Part shown: positions 2,000 through 25,497 of the stretch, piece after piece
Layout of the letters: each line of letters starts with the position of its first letter
Position numbering within the stretch: position 1 is the stretch's first letter
Assembly: GCA_904420535.1 (NCBI GenBank)
Contig: CAJFVQ010000002.1
Span: forward strand, 1-49,625
Length of the DNA: 49,625 nucleotides
Direction of reading: 5' to 3'
Source: Candidatus Cryptoclostridium obscurum
GTDB taxonomy: Bacteria > Bacillota > Dehalobacteriia > UBA7702
Made by a program: the position numbers and the translations under genes
The notes under the pieces: generated by a model
Database searches by the model: none
What the model was told of the DNA's origin: nothing
Seen by the model: only the letters and a program-made list of their open reading frames with translations

Positions 2000-3460
2000 A
2001 TGGACGTTTTTAATGAATTTTTCAACAAAAATACCATGTATTTCGATGCCTTTGACAAAATGGTAGAAGCAGTTTATATCTGCGATATTGATGGAAATCT
2101 GGTGTATTTCAATAAAGTTGCGGAACGGTTAGACGGGTATCTTTTAAAAGACGTCAAAGGGCAATCAACCTATGACCTTTATGGCCTCGATGAAAGAAAC
2201 AGCCCCATGTTGAAAGCCCTGGCAACGGAGCGGCCTGTCCATAACGAAGAGTTTTCTTATTATGTCAACGGTAAGGAAAATGTGCAATTATGCAATGCCG
2301 GCCCTATTTACAACGACGGAAAACTTGTCGGTGCTTATACGGTGCAGCGCGATTTAACTGTATTGAAAGATATGGTAGAGCGAAATATCGCTCTGCAAAA
2401 TGAATTAATCCAGCAAAAAAACCGCGCGGTTTCTGAGACTTCTCCCAGTGAAACTTTTGATCATCTCATTGGTGAAAGCGATGCTTTTCAGAAGTGTAAA
2501 GAACTTGCCTTGCGGGTAGCAAAAACTAATTCCTCGGTAATGCTGGTGGGAAGCACCGGTAGTGGGAAGGAAGTCTTTGCCCGGGCGATCCACGATCATA
2601 GTAACCGTGTCAAAGGACCCTTTCTCGCTTTAAACTGTGCGGCGATTCCTGAGAGCTTAATTGAAGGGATTCTTTTTGGTACGACGAAAGGGGTATACAC
2701 CGGTGCTGTGGAAAAGGAAGGTCTCTTGGCCCAGGCTGACGGAGGCACCGTTTTTCTTGATGAAGTGAATTCCATGCCTTTGGCTTCTCAGGCGAAACTC
2801 CTGCGGGTTTTGGAAGAACGAAAAATTATGAAACTGGGAAGTAAAAAAGAAATGGATATTGATGTGCGTATTATCAGCAGCACCAATGAAATCCCTCGTG
2901 ATGCCATTGACAATGGCCACCTGCGGGAAGATCTGTTTTATCGCCTCTCCGTGGTGCAAATTAGTATTCCGCCATTGGAAGATCGAAAGGAAGATATCCC
3001 CTTGCTGGTGCAGCATTTTATTGCCAAATATAATGAAAGATTTCATAAAAATGTGTTGGGTGTAGACCATGAAGTATTGGATTATTTTATGAAATTTCCT
3101 TGGCCCGGCAATGTTCGTCAATTGAAAGCCTGTGTGGAATCAGCGATGAACTTTGCTGCTGACGGCAGCTTAATTACCTTTCATGATCTTCCTCAATATG
3201 TGTTTGAAAGTTCCCTTTCTCCGGAAGACCGATACCGCCAGCGGCTTCAGATGACGAACCAGAAATCTACTATGTATGCCTCTCCCAAAAAGGATTCTTC
3301 AAAAGAAGAGAGCGTGATGGATTCTATTTGGAATGATGAGCGAGAAGAGATTATTCAGGCACTGCGTCGTTCCAAAGGGAATATGACAAAAGCTGCCCAA
3401 TCTCTCGGTATTAGCAGACAGTTATTGTTTTACCGTTGCAAAAAATATCGGATTAAATAA
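2000..3460 (+). CDS. PAS-domain sigma-54-dependent transcriptional activator
   Basis: A 486-residue enhancer-binding protein. Residues about 10-120 form a PAS sensor (VYICDIDGNLVYFNKVAERL), followed by a linker and a AAA+ domain from about 150 to 390. Walker A is GSTGSGKE, Walker B is GGTVFLDEVNS, and the sigma-54 contact loop reads GVYTGA instead of the usual GAFTGA. The Phe-to-Tyr change is tolerated in known activators. The C-terminus (about 445-486) is a Fis-type helix-turn-helix containing NMTKAAQSLGISRQ. A GAGGGG ribosome site precedes the ATG. The gene ends at a hairpin terminator, beyond which lie a large inverted repeat and a -24/-12 promoter driving mttB. It is therefore the likely activator of the 3916 methyltransferase, probably sensing a small molecule through PAS. 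Confidence 0.92.
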   Translation: MDVFNEFFNKNTMYFDAFDKMVEAVYICDIDGNLVYFNKVAERLDGYLLKDVKGQSTYDLYGLDERNSPMLKALATERPVHNEEFSYYVNGKENVQLCNAGPIYNDGKLVGAYTVQRDLTVLKDMVERNIALQNELIQQKNRAVSETSPSETFDHLIGESDAFQKCKELALRVAKTNSSVMLVGSTGSGKEVFARAIHDHSNRVKGPFLALNCAAIPESLIEGILFGTTKGVYTGAVEKEGLLAQADGGTVFLDEVNSMPLASQAKLLRVLEERKIMKLGSKKEMDIDVRIISSTNEIPRDAIDNGHLREDLFYRLSVVQISIPPLEDRKEDIPLLVQHFIAKYNERFHKNVLGVDHEVLDYFMKFPWPGNVRQLKACVESAMNFAADGSLITFHDLPQYVFESSLSPEDRYRQRLQMTNQKSTMYASPKKDSSKEESVMDSIWNDEREEIIQALRRSKGNMTKAAQSLGISRQLLFYRCKKYRIK

Positions 3461-3800: not shown

Positions 3801-3818
3801 TTGGCATAGTTTTTGCTG
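3801..3818 (+). promoter_or_regulatory. Sigma-54 (-24/-12) promoter of mttB
   Basis: The sequence TTGGCATAGTTTTTGCTG matches the TTGGCAC-N5-TTGC consensus, with exactly 10 bases between GG (3803-3804) and GC (3815-3816). Transcription should start near 3828, leaving a leader of about 88 bases before the ATG at 3916. A sigma-54 activator gene lies directly upstream on the same strand. Confidence 0.82.
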
Positions 3819-3915
3819 TATAAAAAAGTAACATGCGAAAAAAATAAAATCGATTTTATGAAAAGCAGAAAAGTTTGAAAACATCAAAAAAGAACAAAAT
3901 ATGGAGGAGATTAAA

Positions 3916-5328
3916 ATGACACCCAGATTCCAACTTTTAACCCAAGCTGACATCGAAAAAATCCATGAAACATCATTGAACATCATGGAAAACGTCGGGG
4001 TTGTTTTCAGCTACGAACCCGCCAGAGAAATGTTGAAAAAACATGGTGCCAGAGAAGAAGGCCACACCATTTTCTTCCCAAAAAGCATGGTAGAAGAAAA
4101 ATTAAAAACTGTTCCTTCCTCTTTCACCCTGCATGGCAGAAATCCTGAAAAAACCATTGAAATCAATACTGAAGACACATGCTATGCCGGTCCTTATGGA
4201 TCTCCCTTCGTCACCGATCTCGATAACGGCCGTCGTTACGGTAGTCTGGATGACTTTATTAAAATTGTTAAACTGCAGAATGACCTTGAAAATATTGACA
4301 TCATCAGCCACATCGGTTGCGAAGCCAATGACGTTGATGCTTCCATCCGCCACAATGTGATGACCTATAACAACTTGAAATATAGCGATAAACCCTTGAT
4401 GGGTAGCGTTCTCGGTTATGAAGCTGCGAAACAGTCCATTGAAATGGCTGGGATTGCCAACGGTGGTATCGACGTTTTGAAGGACAAAACCGTCATCGCT
4501 TCGATTCCCTGCACCCTTACTCCCCTGAGCTATGACGACAAAATGGCTGGCGCCATCATGGCCTATGCCGAATACAACCAAGCGCAGTTAGTCAACTCCC
4601 TCTCCATTTCCGGTGCCACCACTCCCGCAACTTTGGTAGGTCTTGTAGCTTTGCAGAATGCTGAAGTTTTGGCCGGTATCGTATTGGCCCAATGCGTCAA
4701 CCCCGGTTGCCCCATCGTTTACTCCGCTTCCGGTTCCAATGCCGAAATGAGCACTGGTGCTCTGTCCATTGGTTCTCCTGAAGATGCTATCGTTTCCCTG
4801 ATCAATGGTCAGTTGACCAAGTTCTATAATATTCCTTGCCGTATCAGCGGTACCCTCTCCGACTCCAAAGCTTGTGATGCTCAGGCCGGATTTGAATCTG
4901 CCATTACTGGCTTGATGGCACAGTTGGCCGGCGGTAACTTCATTCTCCATGCTATTGGTATTATTGAAGCATACAACTGCACCTCCTTTGAAAAAATGAT
5001 CGTTGATAACGAGCTTCTTGGTTACTTCAAACATATCGGCAGAGGCGTAGAAGTCAACGACGATACCTTGGCTTACGACGTCATCAAAGAAGTTGGTCCT
5101 CAGGGCGAATTCCTTTCCAATCCCCATACTTTCATGCATTTCCGCAATGAATTCTATCGTCCTACCATTACCGACAGACTCAACTATGACCAATGGCATG
5201 CCAATGGCGGTCTCACCATTGATCAAAGAGCCAATGCCAAATGGAAACAAATGTTGGAAGACTATGTAGAACCTACACTTCCCGCCGATGTTGATGCTGA
5301 ATTGAAAAAATACGTTGACGAACACTAA
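3916..5328 (+). CDS. MttB-family methyltransferase without pyrrolysine (betaine-type)
   Basis: A 470-residue member of the trimethylamine methyltransferase (MttB) superfamily. Such proteins form a TIM barrel and transfer a methyl group from a quaternary or tertiary amine to a corrinoid protein. The pyrrolysine position is recognisable in the segment IPCRISGTLSDSK and is occupied by Leu314 (codon 4855-4857), so this is a non-Pyl paralogue of the kind that includes the glycine betaine, proline betaine and carnitine enzymes. The ATG at 3916 is preferred over that at 3901 because GGAGGAG at 3903-3909 sits six bases before it. Codons are strongly biased to GTT, ACC, GAA and AAA, suggesting high expression. 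It is driven by the sigma-54 promoter and followed by an MFS carrier. The exact substrate cannot be read from sequence. Confidence 0.9.
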   Translation: MTPRFQLLTQADIEKIHETSLNIMENVGVVFSYEPAREMLKKHGAREEGHTIFFPKSMVEEKLKTVPSSFTLHGRNPEKTIEINTEDTCYAGPYGSPFVTDLDNGRRYGSLDDFIKIVKLQNDLENIDIISHIGCEANDVDASIRHNVMTYNNLKYSDKPLMGSVLGYEAAKQSIEMAGIANGGIDVLKDKTVIASIPCTLTPLSYDDKMAGAIMAYAEYNQAQLVNSLSISGATTPATLVGLVALQNAEVLAGIVLAQCVNPGCPIVYSASGSNAEMSTGALSIGSPEDAIVSLINGQLTKFYNIPCRISGTLSDSKACDAQAGFESAITGLMAQLAGGNFILHAIGIIEAYNCTSFEKMIVDNELLGYFKHIGRGVEVNDDTLAYDVIKEVGPQGEFLSNPHTFMHFRNEFYRPTITDRLNYDQWHANGGLTIDQRANAKWKQMLEDYVEPTLPADVDAELKKYVDEH

Positions 5329-11930: not shown

Positions 11931-13427
11931 TTAGTCTTCACCGGGCATATGACCAACGGCGTTTTCTACCACTTCACGGATTTTCGCTGCTGCATCTTTT
12001 GGCAAGGGGGTGGGCTCATGATATTCGATGATATCACGCACTTTTTCGTTGGCAACCTGGGTCAATGTTTTGCCGCCTGCTTTTTCCCAAAGCTCTCTTG
12101 CGCCGCGGTGTACTAAACGGTTTTTATAATCGACTCTGGGATTCTTCGGTACATAATCTTCATCATCGTCGTCGTCATCCCAATCGTCGTCACGTTCCAC
12201 TACGTTGAATCTGCCGCCGGGGCCGACGGATTCGATCTTATCCAGAGCTTTGGTTTCTTCATTGACTTCGATGCCGGCAGTGAGACGGCGAGCCATACCT
12301 AACACTTCGTCGGCGATAACAACCAGATCTAAGTTGGAGGTGGTGCCGTATTCGGAATAACCGATGTCATGGTTGAGGTTCGCACCGGACATATTGGTCA
12401 TTGCGATGGAGAGCGCGGCTTCTACACCGGCCTGTTCATCAATAATACAGGTATCGGTGCAACCGGCAGTGCCGAACATGGGGATATTGAGGTAATGTGC
12501 CACATCGGCGAGACCGGCAAGGAGTAAACTTAATTCGGGAGCACCATAGGAGAAGATGGTGGAACCCATGTCAAGGATGGTATAAACGCCGCCCATGATG
12601 AAGGGAGCGCCTTCTCTGGTACATTGGCTCAAAACGAGACCACTGAGGCTTTCGCAAAGGCCTTGCACCATAACGCCGGCCATGGTGGCGGGAGCAGTGC
12701 CGCCGGCCATAATACAAGGAGTATAAATAGTGGGCAAGCCTTTTTTGGCACCGGTCACTAATTTCTGGGCTGCTTCAATGCAATGAACTCCGGGAGAGAT
12801 CGGCTCTGCGTAGAGGCAGATGAAGGGATTTCTGCGTAATTCTTCTTCACCACCGGCGACGATTTCCGCCATTTTAATGCAGTCATCTTGGCCCCATTGG
12901 TCAACGCAAACGGTGATGATGGGCTTTTCCGTGTTCAGGATCTGCTGTTCGAATTCATGACGGTCGGAGATGAGAAGGGGAACATCCTGTACAATCCCTA
13001 AGCTCATGGCGTAGTCGATGTTGGGCAATGCATCCAACACTTTGGTGGCCCAGCCCACGCTCTGTCTGGTGGCGCGATGGCGTTCACCGGTGTAGGGGTT
13101 CCGAGTAAAGGGCGTGCAGGGGCCGGAACCGAAGTAGGAGTTTCCGCCTTCCAAGAAGAGTTCTCTGGCGCCGGTACGGCTATTGCACAATACAACGTGT
13201 TTCTGACAACTTTGCAGTGCGGCTTCGGTAATATGGGCGGGAATGCGAACCCGTTTGCCGTCAACCCAGCAGCCTGCTTTTTTCAATATTTCAATGGATT
13301 CGGGATCATAAAAGTCGGTCCCTGTGCGCCACATGGCTTCTTCCGCGGCCAAAACCAATTCGCGGCATTGGGCTTCAGAGAAAACGTGCATGGACACACC
13401 CGTATTGGCTTTATAGTTAGTTCTCAT
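11931..13427 (-). CDS. MttB-family methyltransferase (non-Pyl) with an acidic insert
   Basis: A 498-residue MttB-superfamily protein. The pyrrolysine site aligns at NIPMFGTAGCTDTC, where residue 323 is Cys (TGC at 12461-12459), so no UAG is used. A GGAGG ribosome site precedes the ATG at 13427, only 13 bases after the previous mttB stop. Near residue 420 there is a run of aspartates (DDWDDDDDDEDY), absent from the other four paralogues, which lies in a C-terminal loop and looks like a recent low-complexity expansion. It should transfer methyl groups from an amine to the corrinoid protein encoded upstream. The side-by-side paralogue suggests either a second substrate or a two-subunit enzyme. 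The substrate is unknown. Confidence 0.88.
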   Translation of the reverse strand: MRTNYKANTGVSMHVFSEAQCRELVLAAEEAMWRTGTDFYDPESIEILKKAGCWVDGKRVRIPAHITEAALQSCQKHVVLCNSRTGARELFLEGGNSYFGSGPCTPFTRNPYTGERHRATRQSVGWATKVLDALPNIDYAMSLGIVQDVPLLISDRHEFEQQILNTEKPIITVCVDQWGQDDCIKMAEIVAGGEEELRRNPFICLYAEPISPGVHCIEAAQKLVTGAKKGLPTIYTPCIMAGGTAPATMAGVMVQGLCESLSGLVLSQCTREGAPFIMGGVYTILDMGSTIFSYGAPELSLLLAGLADVAHYLNIPMFGTAGCTDTCIIDEQAGVEAALSIAMTNMSGANLNHDIGYSEYGTTSNLDLVVIADEVLGMARRLTAGIEVNEETKALDKIESVGPGGRFNVVERDDDWDDDDDDEDYVPKNPRVDYKNRLVHRGARELWEKAGGKTLTQVANEKVRDIIEYHEPTPLPKDAAAKIREVVENAVGHMPGED

Positions 13428-13440
13428 TGATGCTCCCTCC

Positions 13441-14949
13441 TTACATTTTCGCTTCGGCTTTTGCGACGATATCTTTCAAGGCAGCCGCTGTTTCAGCAGG
13501 CAAAGCCTCTGGTTCGGCCATGGCCAAAATGCTTTTCGTCATTTCCATAGTACGCTGTCCCAAGGTTTTTGCACCGGCAGCGGTCCAATCGTCAATTCTG
13601 GCGCGATTCATCAATTTAGGCCAGAATTGTTCTTTTTTGAAATAGTATCTGGTGTGAGGAGAACCGAGATAATGACCGCCGGGTTGTACGTCATCGATGA
13701 CGCCACGAGCAAGACGATCTTCGTCCATGGCTACGCCTTTCATAATGCGGCGTGTCATACCCATTACTTCACTGGCCATAACGAGGAGGAAGGCACTGCC
13801 GTATTCTCCAGTTTCCATCTGACCGGCTCCGCTGATGACATTGGTTCCGGAGAGACCAGCGTGAAGCAGAGAGAATGTGGATTCAAGCCCCATCTGAGCA
13901 TCGCTGATTTTGGCATCTGTGGCGCCGCCAAAACCAAAGCAGGGAATATTGAGGTAACCAAGAACTGCGCTGAGTCCTGCACCCAATAAGGATACTTCGG
14001 GAGCACCGATCGGGAATGTTTCATTTGCTACATCGTCGATGGTGAAACATCCACCTGCGATGACGGGAGCACCTGATGCAACCATTTGAGCAAGGGTAAT
14101 GGCCACCAGAGCGTTGGCCAAGGCACATACGATGGCGCCTGCGCTTTCCTGGGGTGCTGTGAGACCGGTGACAAGTTTGCTGGAGAAAATGACCGGGAAT
14201 CCTTTTTCCGCTGCTTCGATGACGACATCGGCTGCCGTCGCGTCAATTGACAAGGATTCTTCATTTTCCACCAATAAGGCAGTGAAGGGATCCAAGCAGA
14301 AGGCTTCGGCACTACCGGCGACGGTAAAGGCCATTTCCATAACAGCTTCGGCCTGAATTTTATTTTTTACTTCTTGAATGACGGGTTTTACCGTATTGGA
14401 TACCAGTGCTTCGTAGCTGTGAACTTCGGCGGCAGCGGCGGGGACGTCACTGGGAATGCCGTTATTCATGACGAAATCAATATCATCAATGCCGCCGCAG
14501 ATCTTCGCGATGTCGGCAACGTCGGCTTTGGTGGCTTCACGGATCTCTTCTGTTTCAATATCCATGATTTTCTCATTGCCATAACCGGGGCCGTAGTGAA
14601 TATTGCCGCTTTCCAACATCATGGCGCGTTTGCCGTTGCGATCGCAAAGAGTCAAGCGTTTGGGTGCATTTGTCAGCGCTTTTTGGATCTTACCGGAGGG
14701 AATACGAACCCTATTCTCTTTGACATAGCAGCCGTTTTTTGCGAAAACTTCGCGGGCTTCGGCACTCAAAACGTCGGCGCCGGTGCGTTCCAGTAATTCC
14801 AATGCAGTCATATAAATATCTTCACATTGGTCGTCGGACAAAATAGTCCATTCAATATTCTGATTGACTTGAAAGCCGGATTTTGTATATAAGCTTTTTG
14901 TTGTAAACAATGCTTTCTCTCCTTTCTCTGGGGAAGCTGTTCTGTTCAT
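13441..14949 (-). CDS. MttB-family methyltransferase (non-Pyl) paired with a corrinoid protein
   Basis: An MttB-superfamily protein of up to 502 residues. The pyrrolysine site aligns at NIPCFGFGGATDAK, where Ala (GCC at 13923-13921) replaces Pyl. The start is uncertain. The ATG at 14949 has only a weak GAAGG site and adds 13 residues, while a TTG at 14910 has GGAG at good spacing and gives 489 residues, matching the length of the Pyl-type gene in this window and placing the Ala at residue 330. It follows the corrinoid gene by 17 bases and precedes another mttB by 13 bases, so it is the most likely direct methyl donor to that corrinoid protein. The compound demethylated is not determined by sequence. 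Confidence 0.88.
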   Translation of the reverse strand: MNRTASPEKGEKALFTTKSLYTKSGFQVNQNIEWTILSDDQCEDIYMTALELLERTGADVLSAEAREVFAKNGCYVKENRVRIPSGKIQKALTNAPKRLTLCDRNGKRAMMLESGNIHYGPGYGNEKIMDIETEEIREATKADVADIAKICGGIDDIDFVMNNGIPSDVPAAAAEVHSYEALVSNTVKPVIQEVKNKIQAEAVMEMAFTVAGSAEAFCLDPFTALLVENEESLSIDATAADVVIEAAEKGFPVIFSSKLVTGLTAPQESAGAIVCALANALVAITLAQMVASGAPVIAGGCFTIDDVANETFPIGAPEVSLLGAGLSAVLGYLNIPCFGFGGATDAKISDAQMGLESTFSLLHAGLSGTNVISGAGQMETGEYGSAFLLVMASEVMGMTRRIMKGVAMDEDRLARGVIDDVQPGGHYLGSPHTRYYFKKEQFWPKLMNRARIDDWTAAGAKTLGQRTMEMTKSILAMAEPEALPAETAAALKDIVAKAEAKM

Positions 14950-14966: not shown

Positions 14967-15605
14967 TTAAGAAATGCCTAACAATTTTTTGCAGAGATCC
15001 GTGGCGGAAACGGCGTCAGGAGCAAAACCGTCGGCAAAGATCTCATCGGCAAAGTCTTGAGAAACGGGAGCACCACCGATGATGACCTTTACGCTGTCAC
15101 GGAGCCCTTCTTCTTTCAACAGCTCAATGGTATCTTTCATATGTAGCATGGTGGTAGTCAACAATGCGGACATTGCTACGACGTCAGGTTTATGTTCTTT
15201 CACACCTTCCACGAAAGCTTCGGGAGATACGTCGATCCCGGCGTTGATGACTTTGAAACCAACGCTTTCCAGCATCATGCCAACGAGGTTTTTACCGATA
15301 TCATGAAGGTCGCCTTTGACGGTACCCAGCAATACAGAACCAATATCCTGTACTTCATCGACATTCATTAGGGGTTTGACGATGTCGGTACCGGCTTCCA
15401 TGGCTTGGGCAGACATGAGAACTTCCGGAACAAACATCTGATTTGCTTTAAAACGAACTCCAACTTCAACCATGCCGCCGATGAGACCGCTGTTGATGAT
15501 GTCCAAAGGAGCCACTTTTTCTTCTAAAAGTTCATTCACCAGTCTTTTTACCTTATTTGCTTTGCCGGCGATGACCGCTTTGGATAAATCTTGTAATGTT
15601 GCCAT
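14967..15605 (-). CDS. Corrinoid (cobalamin-binding) methyltransferase protein, MttC/MtbC type
   Basis: A 212-residue protein with an N-terminal helical cap (about 1-85) and a C-terminal Rossmann-like B12 domain. The cobalt-ligating motif is complete: GDLHDIGKN (His about 108), followed by the AMSALLTTTM and GGAP segments typical of the family. It accepts the methyl group from an MttB-type enzyme and passes it to a corrinoid:folate (or CoM) methyltransferase, which is not in the window. AAGGAGG lies just before the ATG. It is the only corrinoid protein here, so the five MttB-family genes probably share it or use partners elsewhere. Confidence 0.93.
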   Translation of the reverse strand: MATLQDLSKAVIAGKANKVKRLVNELLEEKVAPLDIINSGLIGGMVEVGVRFKANQMFVPEVLMSAQAMEAGTDIVKPLMNVDEVQDIGSVLLGTVKGDLHDIGKNLVGMMLESVGFKVINAGIDVSPEAFVEGVKEHKPDVVAMSALLTTTMLHMKDTIELLKEEGLRDSVKVIIGGAPVSQDFADEIFADGFAPDAVSATDLCKKLLGIS

Positions 15606-18914: not shown

Positions 18915-21008
18915 TCACTTTACGGGGAGTACGATACCGAATTTCTTTATTTTTTTGTATAACGTGGAACGTCCCATTTTAAGTAGTTTCGCGGCAGCGG
19001 TGACATCATTGCTGGTACTGCGCAACGCTGTACATATGGCGCCGACTTCTGCCTCTTTGAGTGGATTCTCCGTTATGGGAGAAAGACTTGCGCCCACCAT
19101 GGTGGCGCATTTCTCTCCATAACCCAAATAAACATCGTCGGGGAAATCCTGTGGTTCGATCCTGTCCCCGTGAAACGTGGTGACAGCATAAATAATGGAT
19201 TTTTGCAACTGGCGTACATTACCGGGCCAATCATAATGGAGCAGCAAATGTTTGGCGCTTTGGCTTAGTAGCGGAATTTGCCATTTCATTTTATCGCAGT
19301 AGTCCCTGATGAACTGTTCTGCCAGAAGGATGACGTCCTGATCCCGTTCTCTCAGCGGTGGGATGATGACTTTCAATGCAGAAAGTCGGTCATATAGGTC
19401 TTCTCGGAAAAGGCGGTTCCGTACCAATTCCTGAAGATCTTGATTCGTAGCGGCAATGAGACGAAATTCCACATCAATATATTTATCACTGCCAATACGC
19501 ATCACTTGATGATTTTCTAGAACCCGTAATAACACCGCTTGGACTTCATAGGGCATGTCCCCAATTTCATCCAGAAATAAAGTACCACCTTGGGCGAGTT
19601 CTATTTTTCCAGGGCGGCCTTTGCGTTCCGCACCGGTAAAACTACCGCCTTCATAGCCCAGCAATTCGCTTTCCACTAAATTGCGAGGCATGGCCGCGCA
19701 ATTTAAGGCAATGAAAGGTCCGTGAGGCCTGGAAACGTTATGTATCGCCTGGGCAAAAAGTTCTTTTCCCGTACCGCTTTCGCCTAAAATCAAAATATTT
19801 TCATAGGAAGCGGCAAAGCGCATGGATATATCTTTGGCTCTGGTAATGGCAGGGCTATCTCCTAAAATATCCTGAAATGTTAGATGGGCGACATTGCTAT
19901 TTCTGCTGGCGATATAAGTATCAATCTGTTTTGGGTCACTGATGCGTACCACAACGCTGTCCGTAGCTTCCGACTGTTCCCCCAAAATCGGACGGATGCT
20001 GAATAAATAGGTCTGATCGCCGTCGGAAAAATGGAGGCTTTCTTCCATACTGTTGACATTGGCACGCAGAGAGATCATGTGTTTTAACTGAGAGTTCTCT
20101 TTGAGGTAAGAGTAAAAATTGTGAAGTTTATCTCCATCATCCTGAATTCCCAAAATATCGAGACTCTTGGGGTTTGCCTTTAATATGTGGCCTTGGTTAT
20201 TTACTAAAAGGATTCCCTCGTCAATAAAGGTCAATGTCGCTTCTAAAATTCTATTTGCATTGTGAAGCTGTTCATTTCTCTTTTTTATTTCGATTTGTTG
20301 TTCAATGGACAGTGCCATGGTTGAGGTCCAGTAAAGTGCATTGATTTGATCGCGATGAGCTTCTGTTGTCCAATATTCTTGCGGAGCCTCTCTTGTTAGA
20401 GCAAGAATTCCCAGGGTGCGTCCTTCATTATCCGTAATGGGAGCTGCTGATAGAATGGTAGGGCGCAAAGTATCGTGAAAATTTTCCGGTCCAATGGTTT
20501 GGGCGGGGCATCCATACCGGAGGGCTAGCATCATAGCAGTAGTGCCCAGCACCTCTTCCCTGCAGGAGGCTGAAATATACTCAACGCCAGAATCTGTTGC
20601 GGGGATTCCTTCATTGGCTACTGTGGTGAAATACGACTTATCCTCGGGATTTACAAAGAAGCAAAGGAGATTCAAGTCGCAATCAAAAAGAATTACCAGA
20701 AGATGAGTAATGGCAAAAAGCTCCATAATCTCTTCTGTAATCATATTTTTTGTGGTCTCAATCAAACGTTCATTTTTTTTATAAAGGTCGTTATTTCGTT
20801 CAACACTGGGATCCGGGGGAAAAAGCGGTAGATATGGCTGTACGTTGTAAGCTGCTGAACGTTCCCAAGATAAGGCAACTTCTGGACGTAAAATCGGATT
20901 GGTCGAAGGATGAATGCCTTTATCGACAAAGTCGCGTTTGGCTTGTTCCATTTTTTCCCAGTCTCCTTTTTGTAGGAGGCTTGCTCTATTGATCGTTTTA
21001 TAATACAT
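18915..21008 (-). CDS. AcoR-like GAF/PAS sigma-54-dependent activator
   Basis: A 697-residue enhancer-binding protein. After an N-terminal segment with LRPEVALSWERS, typical of AcoR/DhaR-type regulators, come a GAF-like sensor (about 75-230), a PAS domain (about 255-350), a AAA+ domain (about 380-610) and a Fis-type helix-turn-helix (about 655-697). Walker A is GESGTGKE, the sigma-54 loop is the intact GSFTGA, and Walker B is GGTLFLDEIGD. The ATG at 21008 has a modest GAGG site; an ATG at 20951 (MEQAKRDFV) with AAGGAG is an alternative. It is divergent from the sigma-54 promoter of the MFS-mttB operon and is its likely activator, sensing a methylamine-related signal. Confidence 0.93.
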   Translation of the reverse strand: MYYKTINRASLLQKGDWEKMEQAKRDFVDKGIHPSTNPILRPEVALSWERSAAYNVQPYLPLFPPDPSVERNNDLYKKNERLIETTKNMITEEIMELFAITHLLVILFDCDLNLLCFFVNPEDKSYFTTVANEGIPATDSGVEYISASCREEVLGTTAMMLALRYGCPAQTIGPENFHDTLRPTILSAAPITDNEGRTLGILALTREAPQEYWTTEAHRDQINALYWTSTMALSIEQQIEIKKRNEQLHNANRILEATLTFIDEGILLVNNQGHILKANPKSLDILGIQDDGDKLHNFYSYLKENSQLKHMISLRANVNSMEESLHFSDGDQTYLFSIRPILGEQSEATDSVVVRISDPKQIDTYIASRNSNVAHLTFQDILGDSPAITRAKDISMRFAASYENILILGESGTGKELFAQAIHNVSRPHGPFIALNCAAMPRNLVESELLGYEGGSFTGAERKGRPGKIELAQGGTLFLDEIGDMPYEVQAVLLRVLENHQVMRIGSDKYIDVEFRLIAATNQDLQELVRNRLFREDLYDRLSALKVIIPPLRERDQDVILLAEQFIRDYCDKMKWQIPLLSQSAKHLLLHYDWPGNVRQLQKSIIYAVTTFHGDRIEPQDFPDDVYLGYGEKCATMVGASLSPITENPLKEAEVGAICTALRSTSNDVTAAAKLLKMGRSTLYKKIKKFGIVLPVK

Positions 21009-21256: not shown

Positions 21257-21274
21257 TTGGCATAAGGGTTGCAA
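21257..21274 (+). promoter_or_regulatory. Sigma-54 (-24/-12) promoter of the MFS-mttB(Pyl) operon
   Basis: The sequence TTGGCATAAGGGTTGCAA matches the consensus, with exactly 10 bases between GG (21259-21260) and GC (21271-21272). The predicted start near 21284 is 54 bases before the MFS start codon. The core TTGGCAT is the same as in the promoter at 3801. Confidence 0.85.
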
Positions 21275-21337: not shown

Positions 21338-22573
21338 ATGAGCACTCAGTCCTCATCCAAAATGGGCAAAGCCTGGGTTGTGTTCTTTATCTTTTTTATC
21401 GCCGCTGTATTTATCAGTGGCAATAATGATAAGGTAGCTGCCAACATGGTTTTACTAATGTCTGATCTTGGTATTAACGCTACGGTAACAGGGCTGATGG
21501 TTACAGTTGCTGCAGTATTGGGCGGCATTGCCGCCATTCCAATTGGCGCTGCTATGGTAAAAACAGGTCCTCGTCTCATTGGCCTGATCGCCATTTTAAT
21601 GGCCTTGGCCGGTTGCATTATCGGTGCCCTGGCTCCTAACAGTGCGATTCTTATGATTGGCCGTTTCTTCGACGGTACTGCTATCGGCGTCATCGGCGTT
21701 GTGGTTCCTTCTGTTGTTGCAGCGTTATTTCCTGAAGAAAAACGGAGTTTGCCCATGGTAATCTGGACCTGCTGGGTCAGTATTGGTTATATTGTGGTTC
21801 TTTTTGGTACCAACCTTTTGGCCGACGAAGCAGCGCCTCATACCTGGGTGAATGTATGGTGGGCACTATCTGCTGTATTTGTTATTATTTTTCTTCTTGT
21901 TGCCTTTCTGGGCAAAATGCCCAATGGAGCCAATGAAGTAGGGGACGTATCGAAAGAAAAAGTCACGATCAAGGACGGTTTTAGCTCTATACCGGCCATT
22001 TTATGCGGACTAATCATGTTATTCCTGGCGGTGATCGTGGTGATCTACTCTTCCTTTGTCCCCACCTATTTGAATCTCAGTCTCGGCTTTGACTTGGCTA
22101 AGGCCAATGCACTTACCTCTCTTAATTCCTTTGGTATGATGATTGGCGGCATTCTGATGGGGATTGCTCTTCTGAAGATCAAAAACAAAAATATGGCATT
22201 GCTGATTTTTGCAATCCTTACGGGCATTCTTTCCGTATTCGTTTTCTTGTTCCCCGCAAATCTTGCGGCAGTATATCTTTTTTTGTTGGGGCTTATTTCC
22301 CAATGTGTGATGGCTACGTTATTTACAGTGGCGCCGGAAGCGGCTCCCTCGCCTGAATTAGTTCCCATTACTATGAGTTTTCTCACCTTCGGTCAGCTGA
22401 TGGCTGGTTTGACCGTGACCATTGCTGGTGCGATCCTTGATGCCAAAGGTTTTGCTGCCCTGTCTTATTTTGTTGGCGTCATGGGCGTTTTATTTATTGC
22501 CGTTTGTGCGACTTTTGTAATTTATATGAAGAAGAGAAACGATAAAAAATCAATTGTGGAGGTTAAAAAATGA
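21338..22573 (+). CDS. MFS transporter of the trimethylamine-type operon
   Basis: A 411-residue major facilitator superfamily protein with 12 hydrophobic segments and a charged C-terminal tail. The start at 21338 (MSTQSSSKMG) follows AAGGGGG; an in-frame ATG at 21284 coincides with the predicted transcription start and is unlikely. It is the first gene after the sigma-54 promoter and overlaps the pyrrolysine-type mttB by four bases (ATGA), so the two are translated together. The likely cargo is trimethylamine or another methylated amine. It differs from the MFS gene at 5719 and the BCCT genes, so four carriers serve this island. Confidence 0.88.
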   Translation: MSTQSSSKMGKAWVVFFIFFIAAVFISGNNDKVAANMVLLMSDLGINATVTGLMVTVAAVLGGIAAIPIGAAMVKTGPRLIGLIAILMALAGCIIGALAPNSAILMIGRFFDGTAIGVIGVVVPSVVAALFPEEKRSLPMVIWTCWVSIGYIVVLFGTNLLADEAAPHTWVNVWWALSAVFVIIFLLVAFLGKMPNGANEVGDVSKEKVTIKDGFSSIPAILCGLIMLFLAVIVVIYSSFVPTYLNLSLGFDLAKANALTSLNSFGMMIGGILMGIALLKIKNKNMALLIFAILTGILSVFVFLFPANLAAVYLFLLGLISQCVMATLFTVAPEAAPSPELVPITMSFLTFGQLMAGLTVTIAGAILDAKGFAALSYFVGVMGVLFIAVCATFVIYMKKRNDKKSIVEVKK

Positions 22574-24039
22574 AAAAGAATTCTTATCCTTGTTCTTATG
22601 GCGGTGTTGGCATTGGTTTGCGCCTATTAAGCGATGATGACAAACAACATTTGCATAGTGCAGTGCTGGAGATCCTCAATACCATTGGGATCAAATTTGA
22701 ATGTGATGAAGCCCTGGATTATTTGGAAAAAGCAGGTGCAACTATTGACAGAAAACAATGTGTTGCCAAAATGCCCGAGTATATGGTCAATGAAGCCATA
22801 TCTACTGCTCCCGGACACTATATTTTGTATGGAAAAAAGCCTGAATATGACGTTACCGTAGGCGATGGCCGCGTTAACTTTTTACCATTTGGCTCCGGTA
22901 TTATGGTGCAAGATTTGAAAACCGGCGAAGTACGGGATTCTACCAAGGCTGATATTGTAGACTGTGCCCGTATTATCGAATCTCTTGATGCTTATGATTT
23001 ATGTATGGAAACGTTGGTTCCTCGCGACGTGGATCCCAAAGTGGCCTCGCTCCATAGTTTTGCGGCCCACAACTTTCATACTAATAAAAATGTTACCTGT
23101 GGTCCGGCGGATAAACGTAGCGCCGAAGCGTTAGTGGAAATGGCTGCTATTATTGCCGGTGGTTTGGAGCAGCTGGCTGCACGTCCCTTTTTTAATTTCG
23201 GCGGCTGCTCTATTAGCCCTCTCACGATTCCCGACAGTACCTGCCAAGCAATTATGGCCGGTGCGCGCTACCATGTTCCTTGCGGCTGCCTGTCCATGGC
23301 TTTGGCTGGTGGGACTTCTCCTGTGACACTTACCGGCACTGTTGCTATGGCTTTGGCAGAAACTCTGGCAGCGGTTGTTCTTTCCCAGAGTGTTAAAAAA
23401 GGTGCAGAGATGCTCATTGGTACTTCTTGCTGCGCTTTGGACCTTCGGCATAATGCTGCTGCTATGGTGGGGACTCCGGAGCTTGCACTGATTAGCGCGG
23501 CATTTTCAGAAATGGCAAATTATTATCAGATTCCTTGCATTGCTGCGGGAACATAGACGGATTCTAAACTTTCCGATTACCAAGCGGGCTATGAAAAAAC
23601 TTCCACCACTATGCTCCCTCTGTTGGCAGGTGCCAGCTTGATTTACGGAGCGGGAATGTTGGAAAACGGTATGGTCATGAATGCCGGTCAGCTTTATGCT
23701 GATGCTGATGCCATCTCCATGCTGCGTTTTGCCCAAAGAGGTCTTCCCGTCAATGATGAGACTTTGGCTTTGGATGTCATTCGTGAAGTGGGAATTCAAG
23801 GAGAATATCTCAGCACGATGCACACCTTCCAAAATTTTAAGACAGAACAGAGTAACCCCACATTCATGAACCGTGATAATCGCGCCGATTGGTTGGCCAA
23901 AGGCGGTCAGTCCATGCATGGCGTTTGCATGAAAAAGGCTGTAGAATTTTTAGCCACAGAACCCAAAGAGATCATTTCTTCGGAAATTCAGGAAAAGGTC
24001 AATGCGGTCATTTCAAAAGCGGAAGCAGAGTGGGAATGA
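22570..24039 (+). CDS. mttB: Trimethylamine methyltransferase MttB with in-frame UAG (pyrrolysine) at codon 329
   Basis: Read through the TAG at 23554-23556, the frame gives 489 residues, close to the length of archaeal MttB (about 495, with pyrrolysine near 334). The TAG is codon 329 in the segment QIPCIAAGT-UAG-TDSKLSDYQAGYEK. The three non-Pyl paralogues have Leu, Cys or Ala at exactly this position, and the sequence stays homologous on both sides, including VNDETLALDVIREVGIQGEYLS near the C-terminus. This is strong evidence for pyrrolysine decoding of UAG, not termination. The enzyme should transfer a methyl group from trimethylamine to a corrinoid protein. It overlaps the upstream MFS gene by four bases and ends with TGA. 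No pylTSBCD genes lie in the window, so the amino acid at codon 329 is inferred. Confidence 0.88.
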
Positions 24040-24068: not shown

Positions 24069-25497
24069 ATGAGAAATACCTATTGTGCAACTCCGAGTAA
24101 TATGGGTATTGGCATTAACCTAATGGGAGATATGGATAAAAACCATATGCATGATGCTATTTTGGAGATCTTAGGTACCGTTGGTGTAAAATTCGAAAGT
24201 AACGATGCCTTGGAAATCCTTGCTGGCCATGGGGTAAAAGTTTGTAAGGATTCTAAGGTCGCTCGTTTTCCCGGTTACATAGTGGAGGATGCTATCGCCG
24301 CTGCTCCAGGACATTTTTATCTTTATGGAAAATCCCCGGAATATGATCGCTTGTTGGGGGACGGTAGAGTTAACTGGATCCCCTTTGGCTGCGGTATTAA
24401 AACGAAAGATTTGGAAACCGGTGAGATTCGTAATACCACGAAACAGGATATTGCCGATAATGCCCGCATCACAGAAGCTCTGCCAGAGTATGATGTTTGC
24501 ATGCAGACCGTTGTGGCCCAGGATGTACCCTCTCATGTGGAAGAGCTCCACAGCTTTACGGCCCATGCTTACAATACTAATAAAAATGTTACTGTTGGCC
24601 CTATGGGCAAACGATCTGCTGAGACTTTGGTGAAAATTGCAGCCACTTGATAATCTTCACGAACGCCCCTTCCTAAATTTTGGCGGTTGTACCATCAGCC
24701 CTCTCACCTGCTTGTCAGGCCATTATTGTGGGAGCCCAGCATCATATTCCCATTGGTTGTCTTTCCATGGCTATGTCTGGAGGGATGTCACCTGTTAAAA
24801 TTACCGGTGCTTTGGTTGTAGATTTGGCAGAAACATTGGCGGCGTTGGTATTGGCGCAAGCGGTGCGAAAAGGTGCGCCGCTAACGGTATTCTTGACCAA
24901 CGCCGTAATGCTGTGGCAGAGCTGGGTTGCCCAGAAGCCGCTTTGCTCAGCGCAGGCTTTGCCCAAATGTGCAACTTCTATGATGTGCCCAGTCTCGTCG
25001 GAGGTACCTAGACAGATTCTAAAACTCCCGATATCCAAGCCGGCTATGAAAAAACCTCGACCGCGATGATGTCAATGTTAGCAGGCGCTAGCTTGATTTA
25101 CGGTCCTGGGATGCTTGACAGTGGTCTTATTATGGATCCTGCATTGCTTGTTGCTGATGCTGATATTATCGCTATGTTGAAGTATTCTCAAAAGGGGCTA
25201 CCCGTCAATGATGATGCTCTTTGTCTAGATGTCATCAAAGAAGTTGGAATCAAAGGCGAATATCTCAGTTCTCCTCACACGTTCCAGTATTTTAAAACAG
25301 AGCAATCCGTGCCAAAGATGATGGTTCGCGATTCTAGAGATGATTGGGAAGCAAATGGCTCCCTTAATATGTACGATCACAGTATTGCCAAGGCCAAAGA
25401 AATCTTGGCGGAAACTCCAAAGGAAATCGTCCCTCTGGCAGTGCGGCAAGAAATCAACGCTTTGATTACTGAATGCGAGGTGGATTGGAAAGATTAA
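24069..25497 (+). pseudogene. mttB: Second UAG-type mttB copy, disrupted by three small deletions
   Basis: A diverged paralogue of the preceding gene with its own GGGAGG ribosome site. Compared base by base with that gene it lacks 14 bases near 24645, 11 near 24708 and 16 near 24880, a total of 41, exactly the length difference between the two genes (1470 against 1429). Each deletion shifts frame: the N-terminal part reads in one frame to a TGA at 24648-24650, then two others follow. The pyrrolysine TAG is kept at 25009-25011 in the context GGT-UAG-TDSKTPDIQAGYEK, and the C-terminal 140 residues are undamaged. It is therefore a recent pseudogene, or a region with assembly errors. The intact segments could recombine with the neighbour. 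Confidence 0.85.

Follow-up and report, generated by a model that had tools for sequence, protein, structure and literature searches.

The locus described here raises the question of whether an in-frame UAG codon in a bacterial mttB gene marks the end of a broken reading frame or is read as an amino acid. The window, that is, the whole stretch of DNA analyzed (49,625 nucleotides), makes up the entire contig C2 of a genome of 2.1 Mb, which is 99% complete and distributed over 101 contigs. The gene at 22570..24039 of the forward strand very probably codes for an MttB-family methyltransferase that contains pyrrolysine, and its UAG 329 would be read by the pyl system found on another contig of this genome (C90).

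The mttB Frame and Its UAG Codon

The frame comprises 489 residues, ends in TGA, and contains exactly one internal stop, a TAG at 23554..23556 (+), which is codon 329, as the preliminary description had stated. When read through, it scores 543.4 bits against the model of the pyrrolysine-type MttB (TIGR02369), narrowly passing the equivalog cut-off of 525. Its homology with the solved MttB of Methanosarcina barkeri (PDB 7XCL, 7XCM, 7XCN) extends over the full length, and codon 329 falls on the modified residue of 7XCL, numbered Pyl334 in that protein (PMC9842639). Gly110, Met249, and Tyr364 of the M. barkeri enzyme are retained as Gly108, Met243, and Tyr359, and the first and last of these residues hold water at the pyrroline ring in M. 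barkeri (PMC9842639). The present protein differs from that of M. barkeri in being bacterial and in having Ser in the place of Thr111.

The codon lies in the conserved segment IPCIAAGT-TAG-TDSK. Its column is occupied by Leu, Cys, and Ala in the three paralogues of the window, located at 3901..5328 (+; Leu; 369 bits), 11931..13427 (-; Cys), and 13441..14949 (-; Ala). The TIGR02369 scores of these paralogues (338–370 bits, below the cut-off of 525), together with the alignment, place them in the MttB superfamily as members lacking pyrrolysine. Both the segment and the three residues had been given in the preliminary description, and were recovered in the alignment.

The TAG might be an ordinary stop in an old, broken mttB, derived from a pseudogene or a sequencing error, in which case only a fragment of 328 residues would be made. 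This reading draws some support from the tandem copy directly downstream, which is truly broken by frameshifts. The last 160 residues of the target gene are, however, as conserved as the first 328. The identity with the nearest homologue in the family (L040) is 46.6% on the 5' side of the TAG and 47.5% on the 3' side, which confirms the unbroken homology that had been noted on either side of the codon. The differences from L040 at codon positions 1, 2, and 3 amount to 0.44/0.29/0.69 before the TAG, and 0.42/0.34/0.69 after it. This equal identity and the bias of the differences toward the third position indicate that the protein sequence is constrained in the same way before and after the codon. 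Even before homology is counted, the chance of 160 open codons following a stop is approximately 1e-4 under the base composition of the window.

The reading of the UAG does not depend on an RNA structure at the site. Folding of 110-base segments located at the TAG or 3' of it, taken from the target gene and three intact paralogues, gave z-scores between -1.6 and +0.6, so that none of the four intact genes folded suggests a distinctive fold or insertion element 3' of the UAG. The slice folded from the decayed copy began some 40 bases past its TAG, and is uninformative on the site itself.

The decayed copy, which was absent from the preliminary description, is a tandem pyrrolysine-type mttB at 24069..25497 (+) that is spread over at least two frames. 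It is 54% identical to the target mttB over its first 191 residues, in frame 3, with the rest in frame 1, and it presents a frameshift and stops near 24648-24653, as well as further damage in the middle. Motif and alignment identify a TAG at its own pyrrolysine site (25009..25011, +; LVGGT-TAG-TDSK). The target mttB may itself have begun to decay, as its tandem neighbor has.

The pyl Operon and the Probable Decoding of UAG

The preliminary description had set a search for pylS, pylT (with a CUA anticodon), and pylBCD as a test of UAG decoding, and all of these genes were found, in a single operon, so that its refuting condition, an absence of pyl genes, does not apply. On one strand of C90, the order is pylSc-pylD-pylT(CUA)-pylB-pylC-methyltransferase-pylSn, which represents a complete pyl operon of the split-synthetase type. 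The tRNA located between pylD and pylB was identified by ARAGORN as a tRNA-Pyl with a CUA anticodon. The identity of the Pyl proteins was judged by the curated cut-offs of the NCBIfam families, which are exceeded by both split synthetase genes (TIGR02367, 345 bits; TIGR03912, 135 bits) and by pylB (479 bits), pylC (374 bits), and pylD (192 bits). The link between C90 and C2 is through binning only, although C90 itself carries an mttB with a TAG, and pylSn occurs throughout the family.

The additional methyltransferase gene, between pylC and pylSn (L003 2282-3160), is of the methyltetrahydrofolate:corrinoid type. The operon is also adjoined by a gene encoding a collagen-like protein with Gly-X-Thr repeats (L003 7894-9075).

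The same system is already present in close relatives, and the genome adds a further case to a type that has been described before. The pyl order of C90 recurs in an uncultured Peptococcaceae MAG (L034), apparently a relative from the same family, where the tRNA likewise lies between pylD and pylB and the additional methyltransferase is also present. The pylSn gene is present in all four genomes examined of the order, which all belong to one family, and in 8 of the 43 genomes of the class. The split operon of Acetobacterium fimetarium (L036) has the same gene set as C90, pylSn and pylSc being encoded separately, but in a different order, pylT-pylSc-pylB-pylC-pylD-pylSn, as opposed to pylSc-pylD-pylT-pylB-pylC-(methyl-THF methyltransferase)-pylSn in C90. 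A 2024 review counted 204 sequences of the split-type PylRS (PMC11363022), and both Dehalobacterium formicoaceticum and 'Candidatus Formimonas warabiya' DCMF have been reported to carry pyl genes (PMC6778437).

The UAG might also be read by a near-cognate tRNA or some other suppressor, with an ordinary amino acid being inserted. Leaky reading of UAG does occur in bacteria. The dedicated tRNA-Pyl and the presence of all the biosynthesis genes in the genome, together with the position of the TAG at the family's catalytic residue, speak strongly against this reading, which appears highly improbable.

The UAG Pattern Across the Methyltransferase Genes

The MttB model has 42 matches in the 2.1 Mb genome, an unusually high proportion for a genome of this size. 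Nine intact mttB genes have a single TAG as their sole internal stop, and all nine score above the pyrrolysine-MttB cut-off, which is reached by none of the TAG-free matches; at least 21 mttB genes are free of TAG. The TAG column is identical in the alignment of all nine intact genes. One in-frame TAG is also found in each of mtmB (truncated by the contig end) and mtbB. Beyond the target gene, then, ten intact or contig-truncated methylamine methyltransferase genes carry one in-frame TAG, and eight of these are mttB genes with the codon at the same site. These ten genes and the full pyl gene set support the decoding of UAG as pyrrolysine, as the preliminary description had suggested.

Residues outside the TAG column separate the two groups independently. 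The equivalent of Tyr364 is present in nine of nine TAG mttB genes versus one of the 21 others, while that of Met249 is found in eight of nine versus none of 21. The TAG mttB genes of this genome and of the family form a single clade (support 100/99). A family-wide homologue search recovered TAG in the same column in 16 of 19 sequences (four of the 16 being the genome's own genes again), with Leu, Leu, and Cys in the remainder.

The finding that nine intact genes share this stop column and are otherwise free of internal stops, and the presence of the pyl genes in the genome, also weigh heavily against the TAG being the scar of a pseudogene or an error, which is very improbable. Pseudogene formation, assembly error, and near-cognate read-through were all rejected for the target TAG. 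What the DNA shows directly is the TAG codon, a complete set of pyl genes, the pattern across the family, and the residues of the active site. Residue 329 is almost certainly pyrrolysine, and sequence evidence could hardly make this assignment firmer.

A similar pattern is known from 'Ca. Formimonas warabiya' DCMF, which has 82 mttB genes and 23 pyrrolysine methyltransferases (PMC6778437), and seven of its pyrrolysine MttBs have been seen in its metaproteome (PMC9768040). Both organisms are clostridial, with many copies of mttB, a minority of which contain pyrrolysine, and a split PylSn/PylSc. The DCMF genome is much larger, at 6.4 Mb, and its 82 mttB genes compare with the 42 superfamily matches of the present host, which belongs to a different family, apparently of the same class.

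Genomic Context and Possible Substrates

In the proposed mechanism, pyrrolysine would be made by PylB, PylC, and PylD of the C90 operon, and charged onto tRNA-Pyl(CUA) by the split synthetase PylSc and PylSn. This tRNA would then read UAG 329, yielding the 489-residue enzyme, whose pyrroline side chain may serve as the binding site for trimethylamine, or some related tertiary amine, beside Gly108, Met243, and Tyr359. The methyl group would be offered to the corrinoid cobalt of a partner protein, from which another methyltransferase would transfer it to tetrahydrofolate.

We infer the partner corrinoid protein, given that none is encoded adjacent to the target mttB, where, in contrast with M. 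barkeri, there is no mttC. The only corrinoid protein gene found in the window is an MtgC-like gene at 14967..15605 (-; TIGR02370, 204 bits, below the cut-off). The genome has nine corrinoid genes, and mtmB, mtbB, and the pyrrolysine mttB of contig C17 each have one of them as a neighbor.

The target mttB is preceded, also in contrast with M. barkeri, by a gene encoding an MFS transporter (21338..22573, +; Pfam MFS_1, 106 bits), which overlaps its start by four bases, and the two genes are likely to belong to the same operon. A site resembling a sigma-54 promoter (TGGCAT-N5-TTGCA; 21258..21273, +) was found upstream of this unit by pattern matching. A divergent sigma-54 activator gene with weak PAS matches (18915..21008, -; Pfam Sigma54_activat, 204 bits) is a candidate regulator of the unit. 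The window contains only two exact matches to TGGCAY-N5-TTGCW (3802-3817 and 21258-21273), against 0.22 expected, a significance that is approximate, as the pattern was tightened after a looser scan. The site at 3802-3817 precedes another mttB and follows the gene for a second sigma-54 activator (2000-3460). Each of the two sites of the window is thus upstream of an mttB unit beside a sigma-54 activator gene.

This context allows for a refinement of the pyrrolysine reading, rather than a rival that would exclude it, namely that pyrrolysine is inserted but that the MFS transporter supplies the enzyme with a substrate different from trimethylamine. The target mttB shows the greatest divergence among the nine TAG mttB genes (33–40% identity), its nearest family relative, L040, also adjoins an MFS gene, and the absence of an mttC beside it is consistent with this view. 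The presence of nine pyrrolysine MttBs in a single genome suggests specialization, and the authors of a study on DCMF have raised the possibility that such proteins serve a novel function there (PMC9768040). The MFS proteins beside the target mttB and L040 are, however, not recognizably alike, the key active-site residues are those of the trimethylamine MttB, and the equivalog cut-off is passed, if narrowly. On balance, a different substrate for the target gene seems rather unlikely. It is similarly a tentative suggestion that the clade of the target gene and L040 represents a pyrrolysine enzyme that demethylates another amine, imported by its MFS transporter. If so, the chemistry of pyrrolysine would reach beyond the three methylamines. 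The combination of a small genome and nine divergent pyrrolysine MttBs offers good material for the study of such substrates in bacteria.

UAG as a Stop Codon

The host is almost certainly a bacterium whose genetic code is expanded, with around a dozen genes that have an in-frame UAG, while UAG persists as a rare stop. Standard annotation would shorten all the UAG-containing pyrrolysine genes. A crude ORF caller, applied to a 690 kb sample of the genome, detected 563 ORFs, of which 32 have TAG at their end; approximately seven of these TAGs represent internal pyrrolysine codons. As TAG still ends the remaining 4–5% or so of the ORFs, UAG has a dual meaning, even though it is rare as a stop.

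No pyrrolysine candidates outside the methyltransferases stood out in this sample. The sample yielded only two other long TAG extensions, one of which (L082) looks like a neighboring gene in the same frame, while the other (L065) is an antisense ORF over an open-ended mttB. In one pyrrolysine mttB (L004, on G000:C41), TAG is both the internal pyrrolysine codon and the final stop, so that a single mRNA would need UAG to be read in two ways.
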